From a virus, in the IMG/VR virus record IMGVR_UViG_3300031857_018470, positions 1-51,928 of that record: a stretch of DNA of 51,928 bases, one strand, 5' to 3'. A program made the position numbers and the translations under genes. The notes beneath the pieces are model-generated. The model was not told the origin of the DNA. It ran no database searches and saw only the letters and a list, made by a program, of their open reading frames with translations. The first letter of the stretch is position 1. Every line of letters starts with the position of its first letter. Below, one piece after another: positions 2,038 to 46,447 of the stretch.

Positions 2038-2302
2038 CTTCTTTAGGTAAAAACCAATTTGAACACCACTTGCTAGGATCTTTTATTTGATTACCTTCAT
2101 CATCTACTAATTCAGCAGTGCCTTTATAGTCTTGGTATTGTTTGTTAGAACACATATGTTTTTCATCTTCAACATAATAATACTTACAAACATGACATCC
2201 AAAACCTATTGGAGAAAACATGTAAGGAGGATATTCTTCTCCTTTATGTTCTTTTAATCTATTTTTAGATACCCAATCTGTTACATTAAAATCTTTTTTC
2301 AT
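2024..2302 (-). CDS. Small Cys-cluster protein (zinc or iron-sulfur)
   Basis: 92 residues from the MKKDF start. A longer reading would add MVI inside the previous gene, but the TAATG junction with the M15 peptidase gene favours this start. Four Cys are arranged as C-x2-C (GCHVCKYYY), then HMCSNKQY and KWCSNW. That spacing suits a metal- or cluster-binding fold such as a HiPIP-like or zinc domain. No family is confirmed. It sits between the lysis genes and the cupin gene. Confidence 0.55.
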   Translation of the reverse strand: MKKDFNVTDWVSKNRLKEHKGEEYPPYMFSPIGFGCHVCKYYYVEDEKHMCSNKQYQDYKGTAELVDDEGNQIKDPSKWCSNWFLPKEDEAV

Positions 2303-2775
2303 TATGACCAAGGTTTATAAGTTGTTTTACCATTTACTCTAACTGCTTTAAGAATTTGCTTTCTTTGACGTCCAGTAGATTCATAGGAAACATGAACCCA
2401 ATCAGGATTATTATCATCACCAAATTCCCAAATCAATTGATCAAAATTAAGATTATTCTTAATATAATCAAATACCATTTTATTTGTTATTCCAGTAGTC
2501 ATACTATCTTGATCCAAATCTAATGCTTCACCACTACAGTGTTGAGATGTGGCTGAAGAACCTGGGGTAGCATCATTTAAAGCTTTAGAGCGATATCCTG
2601 AAGATACGTTAATTGGCTTTTGAAAATGCTCTCGTATTGGTTGAAATATATTTTGTGCTACTAGTTTTAAGTTAGCAAGGTGTTCTGCTGTAGGTATGTT
2701 ATCTATACCAAGTCTTTTAGCAGTACTAGATTTAGTAACTTCTACTAATGTTAAGTTCGCTGATAATTGTGTCAT
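2302..2775 (-). CDS. Peptidase M15-family endolysin (peptidoglycan peptidase)
   Basis: 157 residues. The M15 zinc-peptidase pattern is clear: VSSGYRSKALN (58-68), the zinc pair H79-x6-D86 in SQHCSGEALDLD, and the downstream WVHVS with zinc ligand H128. Such enzymes cut the peptide stems or cross-bridges of peptidoglycan. There is no signal peptide, so release through a holin is expected; a holin-like gene lies directly upstream with a TAATG junction. This is the likely endolysin of the lysis cassette at 2302-4786. Confidence 0.85.
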   Translation of the reverse strand: MTQLSANLTLVEVTKSSTAKRLGIDNIPTAEHLANLKLVAQNIFQPIREHFQKPINVSSGYRSKALNDATPGSSATSQHCSGEALDLDQDSMTTGITNKMVFDYIKNNLNFDQLIWEFGDDNNPDWVHVSYESTGRQRKQILKAVRVNGKTTYKPWS

Positions 2776-3014
2776 TATTCTTCTGATTTTTTACTTCCAA
2801 ATGCAAATTTTTCTACTGTATTACCAAATAAAGCAGCAATAGTAATATACTTAACTGCTTCTACTAATTCAGGAGAGGGTGCTACATCTAATGTTGAAAA
2901 TGAATTTGCTGTCATAGTGCCTGCTAAGAATAAAAAACCTAAGAAACCAATTACTCTTTTAGTTGATACGCTACCAGTATCTCCAGATAGCATGTTAATA
3001 AAGAAATTTTTCAT
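2775..3014 (-). CDS. Holin-like membrane protein
   Basis: 79 residues. Two hydrophobic segments (about 21-38, GFLGFLFLAGTM, and about 52-68, AVKYITIAALFG) are separated by a short turn, and the C-terminus is charged (FAFGSKKSEE). Size, topology and position immediately before the M15 peptidase gene (TAATG overlap) fit a class II-type holin. No specific holin family is recognised, so the call rests on topology and context. Confidence 0.65.
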   Translation of the reverse strand: MKNFFINMLSGDTGSVSTKRVIGFLGFLFLAGTMTANSFSTLDVAPSPELVEAVKYITIAALFGNTVEKFAFGSKKSEE

Positions 3015-3026
3015 ATGTATTATGTT

Positions 3027-4103
3027 TTAGTTTAAGGATATAGCTTTTTTTTCAAAAATATCATCATATTTAACATTAAAAGGATTATACCAAGTTAATG
3101 ATTGTTTTGATTTTTTGCCTAATTGATAAACAAAACCTAAAGAAACTCTATAATAAGTATCATTATCTGAGTATAATTGAGAGTAACCGTCTAAATCATC
3201 TCCTAAATAATAATTATAATTAAATTCTAAATTAATAGAACTTCTATTTGATATTTTATATCTAGTTCCTACATAAAAAGGTATAACTAAATCTGTTTTT
3301 TCAATAGTATATTCTTTTTGTGGAGCAGTGACATTTGTTTTAAAGTTAATAACACCTAAACCTGTGCTAAAATAAAAAAGAGTATTTTTATAATTATCTA
3401 AAAGTCTAATATTACCTATTTGAAATTGAGGAGCAATATCTACATACCAATTAACCTTAGTATTATACAAAAGATTTTTACCAGTGCCAGTAAATTTAGT
3501 TTTATATAAATTTAAATTGGTTGAGATGAATGGTGATAATTGTTTATTTAATTTTAAACCTAAATCAAAATTAGATGATATAGATGTTTCAAATAAATCA
3601 TTATCTACTCTATCAAAAGTACCATAGGTAAATCCTATATTAGGTTGGATAGACCAAGTATTAAAGTCTCTTAATTTATATTTTTTAGCTTGATTTAAAT
3701 CATAATAATATATAGTATCATAATCAGATGAAATACCACAAATTAAAGATTTTTTACTGGATAATTCTTTTATAGCTATTTGTAGTTTATCTACTTTTAG
3801 ACTAGATTTTTCAACTACTACTTGTAACTCAGTATTCTGTATTAAAAGTGAGTCACTAGCTTTAGTTAGTTCTTCAACTTTAACATTATGAACTTTATTT
3901 AAACTATCAATATATAATTTAAGTTTAGCGAATTTATTATTAATGTCTCTAGCTTGAGACAATTTCATAATAACTAAAGTGTCGCCCTTATTAATCTTGG
4001 TTATCGGATACTTCCGTTGGGATAACGAATTGAAAGGCAATGCCATCATCAATAATATCGTTATCAACAGAGGTTTTAGGAGCTGATAGGATTGGTTTTT
4101 CAT
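3027..4103 (-). CDS. Secreted coiled-coil plus outer-membrane beta-barrel protein (candidate outer spanin partner)
   Basis: 358 residues. Residues 1-29 form a Sec signal peptide (Lys near the start, LLITILLMMALPF core, cut after SLSQ). About 45-125 is a helical coiled coil (KLKLYIDSLNK, ELQVVVEKSS). About 145-335 has repeated short amphipathic strands with aromatic ends (FSTGLGVINF, LEFNYNYYLG, YRVSLGFVYQL), as in outer-membrane beta-barrels. The first 113 bases lie in another frame inside the spanin-like gene at 3991-4326, the way Rz1 genes start inside Rz. The signal peptide supports the early start. Confidence 0.7.
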   Translation of the reverse strand: MKNQSYQLLKPLLITILLMMALPFNSLSQRKYPITKINKGDTLVIMKLSQARDINNKFAKLKLYIDSLNKVHNVKVEELTKASDSLLIQNTELQVVVEKSSLKVDKLQIAIKELSSKKSLICGISSDYDTIYYYDLNQAKKYKLRDFNTWSIQPNIGFTYGTFDRVDNDLFETSISSNFDLGLKLNKQLSPFISTNLNLYKTKFTGTGKNLLYNTKVNWYVDIAPQFQIGNIRLLDNYKNTLFYFSTGLGVINFKTNVTAPQKEYTIEKTDLVIPFYVGTRYKISNRSSINLEFNYNYYLGDDLDGYSQLYSDNDTYYRVSLGFVYQLGKKSKQSLTWYNPFNVKYDDIFEKKAISLN

Positions 4104-4326
4104 TTTTTACTTTAACTTGTTTTAAATTAAGATTTTCGCTTTTTAAACCAGCATTCTCTAATTTAAGAGATTTATTCTCAACAGTGAGTTTATCGTTAAC
4201 TTTAACTAAATGAACATTGTCTTCTACTACCTCAACATGACCTGTGCCTGTCCTAAAGATTGTAAAGACAATAAAAAGTAAAACACTAAATAAGACTCCA
4301 AAAGTTAATAATGTTTGTTTTCTCAT
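3991..4326 (-). CDS. Inner-membrane spanin-like protein (i-spanin / Rz-like)
   Basis: 111 residues with one N-terminal membrane anchor (about 7-25, LLTFGVLFSVLLFIVF). A periplasmic heptad-rich segment follows (about 38-78, LTVENKSLKLENAGLKS). This is the typical layout of an inner-membrane spanin. It overlaps the upstream gene by ATGA, and its 3' end is overlapped out of frame by the signal-peptide region of 3027-4103. Together they form an Rz/Rz1-like arrangement. Spanins are too divergent for a family match by eye. Confidence 0.65.
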   Translation of the reverse strand: MRKQTLLTFGVLFSVLLFIVFTIFRTGTGHVEVVEDNVHLVKVNDKLTVENKSLKLENAGLKSENLNLKQVKVKNEKPILSAPKTSVDNDIIDDGIAFQFVIPTEVSDNQD

Positions 4327-4619
4327 CGGTTATTATTATAAGTTGATCTCATTATAATATCTTTTAAGTCTTGTAACGCTTTTGTATTGTTATCAAGAAC
4401 AGCTTTCATATTAGCAGCATCATTACGAATATAATCATTAAGCTCTTTTTGTAACTCATCTACACGAGTCTTTAATTTATCTTCTGATGCTATTTGTCTC
4501 TTTAATAGAAACCAAAGTGCAGCGCCTAAACCAAGTGTAATAACACCCAAAGCACCATATTGTGTGAGTGTTTCAAATACACCAAACGATTCAACTTGTA
4601 AAAGAATAGTGTTCATCAT
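4323..4619 (-). CDS. Membrane protein with coiled coil, paralogue of the next gene upstream
   Basis: 98 residues. One membrane span (about 22-40, GALGVITLGLGAALWFLLK) is followed by a cytoplasmic or periplasmic coiled coil (KLKTRVDELQKELND). It matches the 56-residue protein at 4616-4786 around GVFETLTQYGALG and the membrane span, so the pair arose by tandem duplication. ATGA overlaps on both sides tie it to the lysis cassette. It may be a holin or holin regulator; function is inferred from context only. Confidence 0.7.
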   Translation of the reverse strand: MMNTILLQVESFGVFETLTQYGALGVITLGLGAALWFLLKRQIASEDKLKTRVDELQKELNDYIRNDAANMKAVLDNNTKALQDLKDIIMRSTYNNNR

Positions 4620-4786
4620 TTATCTTTTTCCTCCAATTTTTTTCTTAAACGGTCTTGTTCATCTAAATTACGTTTAACAAAAAACCAACAAACTGCTCCT
4701 AAAGCTAATACAATTAGACCTAAGGCACCGTAGTTTGATAATTGCTCGAAAACTCCAAAATTTGGTACTACTGCTGTTGTATCCAT
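4616..4786 (-). CDS. Small membrane protein, short paralogue in the lysis cassette
   Basis: 56 residues: MDTTAVVPNFGVFEQLSNYG, a membrane span (GALGLIVLALGAVCWFFVK), then a short charged tail (LDEQDRLRKKLEEKDK). Its first 45 residues align with the protein at 4323-4619, which has a longer coiled coil. Start at 4786; the stop overlaps the next start as ATGA. It is probably a holin-type or regulator protein, not proven. Confidence 0.7.
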   Translation of the reverse strand: MDTTAVVPNFGVFEQLSNYGALGLIVLALGAVCWFFVKRNLDEQDRLRKKLEEKDK

Positions 4787-5177: not shown

Positions 5178-5551
5178 TATATACCTATATTTAATAATTT
5201 AGGTTCAGCTTTAAATTTAATTACACCTCTAATTTTAGAAATATTATCAATAATTTGTTTAACAGTTTCTTCATCAAACTTACCCGCTTTTAAATAAGGA
5301 TAAGGATCAATTTTAACTGTTAAAATATTATAATCATGTCCTGGTGTAGGTAAATTTGGAGTATATTGTTTGGCGTCAATAGTGGTAACTCCAGTTATTG
5401 ATCTAATATCTGAGAGGATCTGTGTTTGTGTTTTGATGTATGTGTCTGTCACTAACAGACCATCAATTTTATAAAGCTTTGTAGCAGAATCCTCACGTAA
5501 TGTTTTACGTATTTCTTCCTTAATATATCTTTTAAATTCGTTTCGAGTCAT
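5177..5551 (-). CDS. Small tagged protein, ferredoxin-like fold predicted
   Basis: 124 residues. The N-terminal 20 (RNEFKRYIKEEIRKTLRED) are the charged amphipathic tag shared by several neighbours. The body alternates beta and alpha (ILSDIRSITGVTTIDAKQ, then YNILTVKIDPYPY, then IIDNISKIRGVIKFKAE) in a beta-alpha-beta-beta-alpha-beta order like ACT or ferredoxin-like domains. No function is recognised. It is coupled to both neighbours by one-base overlaps. Confidence 0.6.
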   Translation of the reverse strand: MTRNEFKRYIKEEIRKTLREDSATKLYKIDGLLVTDTYIKTQTQILSDIRSITGVTTIDAKQYTPNLPTPGHDYNILTVKIDPYPYLKAGKFDEETVKQIIDNISKIRGVIKFKAEPKLLNIGI

Positions 5552-5916
5552 TAGTTAAGACACTTTAATTTATATAAAGTTGAATTCACTAATGTTACCA
5601 TTTCATCTACTTGATTGTCAAGATAAGAATCAGTGATTCCTTGACGTAGATCACCTATAGTAGCACACAGTGCTTCAAAATATTGAATCACTTGTTGTTT
5701 ATTAGTATAGTTCATTAAAGCAAATCCAGTATATCCATTCATAATACCATATTTACCTTGATAGCTTTCTACAAAACCATCAATTAAATCTACAATACCA
5801 TCATAATAATCATTCAATGCTTTATGTTCAGCAAATGAATTAGTTTGCAAATGGAACACATGAGCCTGTGTTCTTGAATGCATTAAATAAGATACTAATT
5901 TTGAGCAATGTTCCAT
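5551..5916 (-). CDS. Ferritin/Dps-like four-helix phage protein (DUF5856-like)
   Basis: 121 residues, helical throughout. KLVSYLMHSRTQAHVFHLQT and FAEHKALNDYYDGIVDLIDGFVESYQGKYG match from memory a family in T4-like phages (DUF5856) with a ferritin/Dps-like helical pattern: a His pair and acidic residues in the first two helices. Iron binding is not demonstrated. It lacks the N-terminal tag of its neighbours. Confidence 0.55.
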   Translation of the reverse strand: MEHCSKLVSYLMHSRTQAHVFHLQTNSFAEHKALNDYYDGIVDLIDGFVESYQGKYGIMNGYTGFALMNYTNKQQVIQYFEALCATIGDLRQGITDSYLDNQVDEMVTLVNSTLYKLKCLN

Positions 5917-5917
5917 A

Positions 5918-6592
5918 TTACCAATATCCTGAGAATGTTGTTTTAAATCCTAATAATTTTGCATAACGAGGTAAGCGACAAGACCAATAACTAGGTTTTG
6001 TTCTATCTTTTTTATTAGCACAATCATGACGTTTAGCAAATGCTTGACGTGCTTTTGGATTGTTTAATTTAGCTCTTAAGCCTCCACCAGCCATACCAAA
6101 TGATACTTTTTTAACACCACCCCCAGGTTTACGAACATAAACATAGAATTTTTTAGATCCACCACGTTTTGGTTTACCTATAGCTGGTTGTTTTTTATCT
6201 TTAGCTTCATCAACCTCTTCCATTTCTAATAGTAAATCTAAAGGTACTACTTTATTTTCATACATTCCAAATTTACCTAAATCAGTTTCCGTAACTAATT
6301 CTTTATCTACATCATTTAAATGAATAGCTTTACTTTCATGTAATTTACGAGCTTCAGCCCATAAATTTAAAAATGCTTCTGAACCATAACGAAAAGTATT
6401 CTCAGTAACGGCTAATTTATTATCAATATGATATTGCATGTTTTCTGAGATGAGTGGTTTAGTTTCTAAACTTTCGTTTAAAACAGGACCAGGATTACCT
6501 ACATTTTCACATGAATGGCAGCCACAATTACATTTATCCTTTTTAGGAGGTGTAGCTAAAACTTCACGTATAAGTCGTTGTATTCTATTCAT
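5918..6592 (-). CDS. Tagged Cys-rich phage protein with basic C-terminal domain
   Basis: 224 residues. Residues 1-12 (MNRIQRLIREVL) are the shared tag. A cluster CNCGCHSC at 22-29 could bind metal. The middle is acidic and helical. The C-terminal 95 residues hold a conserved basic module (GKPKRGGSKKFYVYVRKPGG, then HDCANKKDRTKPSYWSCR) that I recall in T4-like marine phages. Such modules are found on head-associated proteins, but a role cannot be assigned. The start has TATTTATCA close upstream. Confidence 0.6.
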   Translation of the reverse strand: MNRIQRLIREVLATPPKKDKCNCGCHSCENVGNPGPVLNESLETKPLISENMQYHIDNKLAVTENTFRYGSEAFLNLWAEARKLHESKAIHLNDVDKELVTETDLGKFGMYENKVVPLDLLLEMEEVDEAKDKKQPAIGKPKRGGSKKFYVYVRKPGGGVKKVSFGMAGGGLRAKLNNPKARQAFAKRHDCANKKDRTKPSYWSCRLPRYAKLLGFKTTFSGYW

Positions 6593-36305: not shown

Positions 36306-36491
36306 TTATTGAGATACAATAGTTGTATCAGTATTATTAGTTACACTAATAACAGAAGTTGTATCTGTTTTTGTTGTATCAACAGTAGTGACAGCAGTAG
36401 TGTCAGTGGTTGCTATCTCTTCAGTTGTAGTTGTTGATGTACATGAAGCGAACATTGCGACAGCGGCAAATAAAATAAATACTTTTTTCAT
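36306..36491 (-). CDS. Small Thr-rich lipoprotein
   Basis: 61 residues. MKKVFILFAAVAMFASC is a lipoprotein signal peptide with the lipid-bearing Cys at 17. The mature part is almost only Thr, Val, Asp and Ser (TTTTEEIATTDTTAVTT). Likely a surface lipoprotein made early, perhaps shielding or excluding other phages; that role is inference. The promoter 36528-36556 lies 37 bases upstream. Confidence 0.7.
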   Translation of the reverse strand: MKKVFILFAAVAMFASCTSTTTTEEIATTDTTAVTTVDTTKTDTTSVISVTNNTDTTIVSQ

Positions 36492-38689: not shown

Positions 38690-38944
38690 TTACTTAACCT
38701 CAATTACCAACGTACCTGTTACTTCTACTAATTTGCCGGTGGCTGTGTCTTCAAAATACCAACCATCTGATTTCTCCGAATTTGATACTGATCCTGTTGA
38801 TTCCCACTGTTTAATTATTTTTCCATCACAACCATACATTGTTATGATATGTGGTTTTCCTAATGAACTAAACTGTGCTGTTTCACTATCCTTACATGAT
38901 ATAAGCATCCCGATTGTCGCTAGTACTACAATTAGTTTTTTCAT
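38690..38944 (-). CDS. Small lipoprotein
   Basis: 84 residues. MKKLIVVLATIGMLISCKDS is a lipoprotein signal with Cys 17. The mature part forms a small beta domain (PHIITMYGCDGKIIKQWES, DGWYFEDTATGKLVEVTGTL). Pattern resembles short host-range or superinfection-related lipoproteins in Bacteroidota phages; role not proven. Leader AAAAACATG. Confidence 0.7.
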   Translation of the reverse strand: MKKLIVVLATIGMLISCKDSETAQFSSLGKPHIITMYGCDGKIIKQWESTGSVSNSEKSDGWYFEDTATGKLVEVTGTLVIEVK

Positions 38945-45947: not shown

Positions 45948-46394
45948 TTAAGAACTTGCTGTACAAGTTGATTTAACTACTCCAGTGTGGTTCTTTAATG
46001 TGTAAGTCATTATTGTACCTTGTGGTCCACCACAAACATTTATCACACAGTTACTCATAATAAATGAATGTCCATTCAAGTTACCTGTGATGCGAATATC
46101 CTCACCCTGAAACGTTGCCCAAAAATACATCACAGTGAAATTATACTGCGGTGTTTGATAACGAAATGTCCTACCTATGGGTTCATCATTAAAACCCAAC
46201 AACGTTTGAACCCGATACGGGTGTAAATTAGTTACACTAATGTTGTTATACGTTGTTGAGAAATCAAGTGTCCAATCAAGTGAGTCCCGTTGTTGTAGAG
46301 GCATTTGCCTCAGTTCACTTTCATTTACAAGTGGTTCCTTTTCACACGACATCATTGCCAGTGCCATTGATACTAATACAAATGCTTTTTTCAT
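45948..46394 (-). CDS. Lipoprotein
   Basis: 148 residues from ATG at 46394 (the longer reading enters the promoter). MKKAFVLVSMALAMMSCEKE is a lipoprotein signal peptide with Cys 17. The mature part is beta-rich (NISVTNLHPYRVQTLLGFND, IRITGNLNGHSFIMSNCVIN) with a C-terminal VKSTCTASS. Surface exposed or periplasmic, perhaps a superinfection or receptor-masking lipoprotein; role inferred. Confidence 0.65.
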   Translation of the reverse strand: MKKAFVLVSMALAMMSCEKEPLVNESELRQMPLQQRDSLDWTLDFSTTYNNISVTNLHPYRVQTLLGFNDEPIGRTFRYQTPQYNFTVMYFWATFQGEDIRITGNLNGHSFIMSNCVINVCGGPQGTIMTYTLKNHTGVVKSTCTASS

Positions 46395-46418
46395 AACCTT
46401 TATTTTTAATTTTAAATG

Positions 46419-46447
46419 AATATACAATCGATTTTCTTGGGAGCCTA
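46419..46447 (-). promoter_or_regulatory. Promoter, TAGGC-N18-TATATT
   Basis: Drives the lipoprotein gene 45948-46394. Confidence 0.7.

Follow-up and report, generated by a model that had tools for sequence, protein, structure and literature searches.

The window, that is, the whole stretch of DNA analysed here, is a 51,928-base IMG/VR virus fragment (record IMGVR_UViG_3300031857_018470). The hosts of this uncultured phage are probably Bacteroidota bacteria; the nearest isolate match of its endolysin is found in Flavobacterium phage MaF61 (55% identity), and matches to baseplate wedge proteins point to a myovirus. Its lysis cassette contains six ORFs, each on the minus strand. The gene order given in the preliminary description (two paralogous membrane proteins, an inner-spanin-like protein, a gene starting out of frame inside it, a holin-like gene and an M15 peptidase) was recovered in full, with every ORF at its coordinates. 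The features of the cassette are listed below.

4616..4786, minus strand: 56-aa membrane protein, first paralogue, with an N-terminal helix and a charged tail (ORF).
4323..4619, minus strand: 98-aa membrane protein, second paralogue, with a helix and then a coiled-coil-like tail (ORF).
3991..4326, minus strand: A', 111 aa, inner-spanin-like, with a predicted N-terminal transmembrane helix and periplasmic coiled coil (ORF, heptad pattern, position kept).
3991..4103, minus strand: out-of-frame overlap of the A' and barrel protein genes, 113 nt, +1 frame (frame shared with relatives).
3027..4103, minus strand: 358-aa exported protein with signal peptide, YP domain (named below), helical or coiled region and 8-strand barrel (sequence, profiles, model).
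4020..4103, minus strand: signal peptide, residues 1-28, with Q-rule cleavage predicted before Gln29 and no lipobox (sequence, family, PMC5837995).
3888..4019, minus strand: YP domain, residues 29-72, YPITKINKGDTLVIMKLSQARDINNKF and the start of the coil (family alignments, HMM searches).
3126..3659, minus strand: predicted 8-strand beta-barrel, residues 149-326 (AlphaFold2 model, OmpA Z 15.7, PorG and OMP_b-brl profiles).
2775..3014, minus strand: 79-aa holin-like protein with two hydrophobic stretches (ORF).
2302..2775, minus strand: M15 peptidase endolysin, 157 aa (Peptidase_M15_3, PHROG endolysin).

The two small membrane proteins are indeed paralogous: their homologues in the related records L008 and L179 each match both, and in L179 each of the two matches both homologues. 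The endolysin matches Peptidase_M15_3 with 53.3 bits (3.5e-14; Pfam cut-off 23.2) and the PHROG endolysin profile with 4.3e-32. No convincing family match of the 79-aa protein was found in profile searches, and it is called holin-like by size and hydrophobicity alone. A classical lipoprotein o-spanin was sought in the cassette and not found, nor does any lipoprotein lie beside it. Three small lipoprotein-like ORFs are located far from the cassette (36306-36491, 38690-38944 and 45948-46427, minus strand). The L180 record resembles the window in having its lipoproteins far from the cassette; all records are fragments.

The gene starting at an ATG inside 3991-4326 had been described as encoding not a small lipoprotein but a 358-residue protein with signal peptide, periplasmic coiled coil and beta-barrel. 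The signal peptide, the barrel and the absence of a small lipoprotein were confirmed, whereas the coil is weaker (heptad test p=0.29). The signal peptide ends in NSLS followed by Q, which matches the Bacteroidetes Q-rule of cleavage before glutamine (PMC5837995). The N-terminal half (signal peptide, YP motif and coil) belongs to an unnamed virus family, which is called 'YP' here, and glutamine occupies the cleavage place in 35/35 family members checked. The signal region lacks a cysteine and has an SPI/Q-rule site instead of the lipobox of an o-spanin. The signal peptide is followed by the motif YPxxxIxxxDTxVxMxxxQAxxIN, then by helices and then by about 180 residues which match barrels.

Concerning the C-terminal region, the PorG profile gives 1.9e-10 for the window protein and 6.8e-12 for its L179 homologue, both under the curated cut-off, and the OMP_b-brl profile gives 1.1e-7 for the L008 homologue, also below the curated cut-off. 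With 40.9 bits against the curated 130 bits of PorG (NF052316), the domain is a related barrel and no PorG. Structure prediction of the full-length protein (7 rows) reached a pLDDT of 35. The AlphaFold2 model of the barrel only (three homologues), at a pLDDT of 54 and a pTM of 0.50, has the expected fold: eight long antiparallel strands which, at this moderate confidence, appear to close a barrel of the OmpA/OmpX class. The model matches OmpA structures in Foldseek (E down to 2.3e-9), 1bxw (OmpA) with Z 15.7 over 160 residues and NspA with Z 15.3; many viral barrels match it as well. The barrel is thus well supported by profiles and model, though not in its details.

Judging from its sequence, hydrophobicity and heptads, A' has the layout of an i-spanin, with a predicted N-terminal inner-membrane helix and a putative periplasmic coiled coil. 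It contains four consecutive N..L...N..L heptads, a pattern that was chosen after the sequence had been seen and that none of the 20,000 shuffles equalled; a generic heptad test, however, does not place A' above shuffles (p=0.56). The coiled coil is supported by the former result and not by the latter. Asparagine at heptad position a suggests a dimer, and the coiled coil of A' is probably dimeric.

Homologous barrel proteins are found in L008 (47% identity) and in L179/L180 (60% identity). In both cases the barrel gene starts within an N-anchored coiled-coil gene but in another frame, with an overlap of 113 nt in L008 and 116 nt in L179/L180 (measured from a TTG start), and homologues of the small membrane proteins are located upstream; the 98-aa protein is 82% identical to that of L008 and 62% to that of L179. 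L008 also has the holin-like gene (91% protein identity to the window) and the M15 gene, as in the window. In L179 no recognised endolysin is present within 3 kb downstream of the pair. The place of holin and endolysin, right behind the barrel gene, is taken there by an exported 348-aa protein (5223-6269), perhaps a surface protein.

Compared between the window and L008, A' is 34% and the barrel protein 47% identical, as opposed to 82-96% for the remaining cassette genes. Since both diverged while their neighbours changed little, A' and the barrel protein changed together, and recombination or fast evolution may account for the excess. A different pair is found in L009, which is collinear with the window gene for gene on both flanks (47-83% identity): beside M15 it encodes a 93-aa coiled-coil protein with an N-terminal transmembrane helix and a 120-aa lipoprotein, which look like an ordinary spanin-like pair at the same locus. 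No barrel protein is present in the 155-kb L009 record, and the L009-type family with the N-terminal helix is absent from the window, L008, L179 and L180 records. A further arrangement is seen in L047 (5005-6477), where a homologue of the 98-aa protein is followed by a 155-aa coiled-coil protein with an N-terminal transmembrane helix, a holin-like gene and M15; no exported overlapping partner of at least 30 aa is found in that cassette. Just upstream of the lysis cassettes, L024 (4241-4801) and L047 (4376-4999) encode proteins with an N-terminal membrane helix and a beta-strand-like C-terminus, which could reach from the inner to the outer membrane as a single chain.

With the YP half alone as query, many more virus loci were recovered. 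A partner gene is present in 53 distinct YP loci of virus contigs (those >85% identical were removed). Among overlaps longer than 20 nt, 52/52 are in the same +1 frame, as are 27/27 clusters at 50% identity; the partner search demanded only that the gene be out of frame, and one other frame was possible. The overlap is not due to chance, because it recurs in about 50 distinct relatives and always in the same frame. An endolysin homologue lies within 3 kb in 39 of the 52 distinct loci that were found without an endolysin in the query, which marks the YP pair as a module of lysis cassettes; four endolysin types are represented (M15_3, M15_4/VanY, GH19 and phage lysozyme).

The anchors of the YP pairs vary. 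The upstream partner usually ends in a motif like F-x-L-x-P-I; it is a lipoprotein in nine clusters, and in the remaining ones it bears an anchoring helix or a standard signal peptide. At the C-terminus of the YP protein itself, one of three things is seen: a hydrophobic helix, a domain without recognisable anchor, or a barrel. Most members belong to the first two kinds, the barrel being a module at the C-terminus. Wherever the partner is a lipoprotein, the YP protein is helix-ended (9/9 vs 8/19 for other partners, Fisher p=0.004, with kinship handled by clustering only and anchor types assigned from simple rules on hydrophobicity and sequence pattern), and all barrels are paired with partners which are not lipoproteins. 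A second set, L127 and L170-L174, has a different barrel on the YP domain, whereas in L175 and L176, relatives whose neighbours are of the same kinds, the protein has a helix at the C-terminus and no barrel; the C-terminal module looks as if it had been exchanged between barrel and helix. Separate acquisition of the two barrel types is possible, since comparison of their profiles gives a probability of 11%.

In some relatives, e.g. L175, L176, L163 and L128, the pair has no outer-membrane anchor. Lipoproteins with a C-terminal helix, which resemble u-spanins, are encoded directly behind the YP gene in L212 and L224 and near YP pairs in L229, L141, L151 and L130 (5623-6111). The YP pairs adjoining these genes have no outer-membrane anchor of their own; where such a gene is present, the YP pair may have another task or work jointly with its product. 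A scan of a genome collection for the YP domain returned one contig only, L169, binned as Candidatus Taylorbacteria and probably a misbinned phage contig. It contains a pair of a lipoprotein and a helix-ended YP protein (1196-1591). Tblastn of the barrel protein, A' and YP proteins against annotated phages returned no relatives.

Compared with known systems, the window pair resembles the overlapped two-component spanins of the Rz/Rz1 type (PMC6139136) in having an N-anchored coiled-coil protein whose partner starts out of frame inside the 3' end of its gene, and in adjoining holin-like and endolysin genes. The arrangement is an overlapped one (113 nt, +1 frame) and is conserved, and the neighbourhood is that of holin and endolysin, the latter by family and the former by its features. 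Unlike Rz1, the exported partner is 358 aa long, lacks a lipobox and has an 8-strand barrel as its C-terminal part. Moreover, two-component spanins have cysteines for intermolecular disulfides in both partners (PMC6139136), whereas A' has none and the 358-aa protein has one (position 122). Because the lipoprotein and the cysteines are lacking, we do not file the pair as a two-component spanin, although it probably works like one.

A unimolecular spanin (T1 gp11 type) would have the same proposed function; the window has two proteins and no lipobox instead, and the 358-aa protein has neither the N-terminal lipobox nor the C-terminal helix of that class. No unimolecular spanin was found among the lipoprotein ORFs of the window. 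The barrel resembles the Bacteroidota outer-membrane barrels T9SS PorG and OMP_b-brl (PF13505) and the OmpA/OmpX/NspA folds in profile and modelled fold, but differs from PorG and OMP_b-brl barrels in that it follows an exported YP/coiled-coil half within a phage lysis cassette. Kongari et al. 2018 treated o-spanins as lipoproteins and named an outer-membrane protein as a possible o-spanin, with no example (PMC6139136); no later report was found in the open-access papers searched. As far as the searched literature shows, an outer-membrane-protein o-spanin is therefore an undescribed design. The preliminary description had proposed a new spanin design: the anatomy, the barrel, the analogy to Rz/Rz1 and the link to lysis cassettes agree with it, but the possibility had already been named.

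We propose, with a probability of about 0.46, that the products of 3991-4326 and 3027-4103 together form a spanin-like complex of the envelope whose outer subunit is anchored by a barrel. What computation shows is that the genes exist and overlap in a conserved way, that the second protein has an export signal and a barrel, that both genes lie in a lysis context and that an ordinary pair takes their place at the same locus in L009; the membrane topology, the contact between A' and the barrel protein and the disruption of the outer membrane are what we infer. The N-terminal helix would fix A' in the inner membrane, and the coiled coil of A' would reach into the periplasm. The 358-aa protein would be exported and cleaved before Gln29, its barrel inserted in the outer membrane and its YP domain and helical part kept in the periplasm, where it would meet A' and so bridge the two membranes. 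Once holin and M15 endolysin had removed the wall, the pair would draw the two membranes towards each other or rupture the outer one, with the barrel standing in for the lipid anchor of Rz1. The joint divergence of both proteins from L008, the pairing rule of lipoprotein and barrel variants and the lack of a lipoprotein beside the cassette also speak for this model. As some relatives carry a separate u-spanin-like lipoprotein, opening of the outer membrane by this pair is an inference. Our confidence stays under one half on account of these genes, the anchorless relatives, the distant lipoproteins and the fragmentary records. The missing lipobox, the lack of cysteine in A', the absence of an endolysin close downstream in L179 and the moderate model confidence count against the proposal too. 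The idea of a barrel-anchored spanin is upheld in part, the barrel being a C-terminal module which most YP relatives do not have. A wider and more tentative reading is that Bacteroidota phages share an overlapping two-gene lysis module, in which the periplasmic parts are kept and the anchors (lipid, helix or barrel) are swapped, and of which the window contains the first outer-membrane-protein o-spanin.

The variation of anchors also bears on a different role, which we consider rather unlikely: the pair might be a lysis-linked envelope complex without being the membrane disruptor, tethering or regulating the holin or endolysin by placing or sensing it. The periplasmic YP domain would then do the work, the anchor would be interchangeable, and the outer membrane would be disrupted by another gene, possibly outside the fragment. 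In favour of this role, many YP pairs have no recognisable anchor in the outer membrane, some of these have a separate u-spanin-like gene nearby, and in near relatives of one barrel type a helix replaces the barrel among the same neighbours. However, the lipoprotein and barrel variants keep one partner per membrane, as a spanin needs, and in L009 this very locus is taken by an ordinary-looking spanin pair.

The remaining explanations concern the barrel protein itself. Phages carry Lom/Ail-like barrel genes for superinfection exclusion or receptor masking, the model has matches among many viral barrels and the 8-strand barrel is a fold of small surface proteins, so the gene could be a surface moron that lies in the lysis region by chance. 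This is improbable, as its N-terminal half comes from a lysis-cassette family mostly without barrels, it shares a conserved out-of-frame overlap with the gene of a coiled-coil partner, and it keeps a late position between spanin-like and holin-like genes in both the window and L008; a free-standing moron would have neither the YP/coiled half nor the conserved overlapping partner. Even less probable is that the barrel protein disrupts the outer membrane on its own, for instance by forming a pore or overburdening the insertion of barrels, and that A' helps it. The barrel is indeed the part that differs from most relatives, and it sits in a lysis cassette, but those relatives occupy the same position without it, and a wide pore is absent from 8-strand barrels such as OmpA and OmpX.

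Returning to the barrel-anchored spanin, the Bacteroidota phages B124-14, P2559S and P2559Y are listed as spanin-less, and it is an open question by what means such phages get through the outer membrane (PMC6139136). The pair could explain how some phages thought to be spanin-less leave their hosts. The presence of the overlapping pair in many cassettes, together with a similar candidate in an isolate phage (gp187/gp186 of immuto, below), makes this question testable. If the barrel does replace the lipid anchor, an outer anchor crossing the entire membrane has to be accommodated in models of spanin-driven membrane fusion; searches based on the lipobox, which are the usual way to find spanins, would miss such pairs.

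A second family, KDLV, has a signal peptide, the motif VAKLVIKDLVxGD and a coiled coil. Its genes (L018 6693-7160; L266-L305 near 2501-2971; L318, L319, L326 and L328; L329 4944-5345) repeat the design of a +1-frame overlap with a coiled-coil gene encoding an N-terminal transmembrane helix, and the proteins end in a hydrophobic helix or in about four beta strands with a final Phe. The isolate Flavobacterium phage immuto (NC_055915) contains a KDLV pair, gp187/gp186, near its annotated holin and endolysin. Gp186 is annotated as hypothetical, and its annotated start cuts off the signal peptide; the overlap is 89 nt if the start is moved to the signal peptide. The immuto pair resembles that of the window in combining a coiled-coil protein with an N-terminal transmembrane helix and an exported coiled-coil protein in the same frame relation, but gp186 is of a different sequence family and has a hydrophobic helix at its end instead of a barrel.
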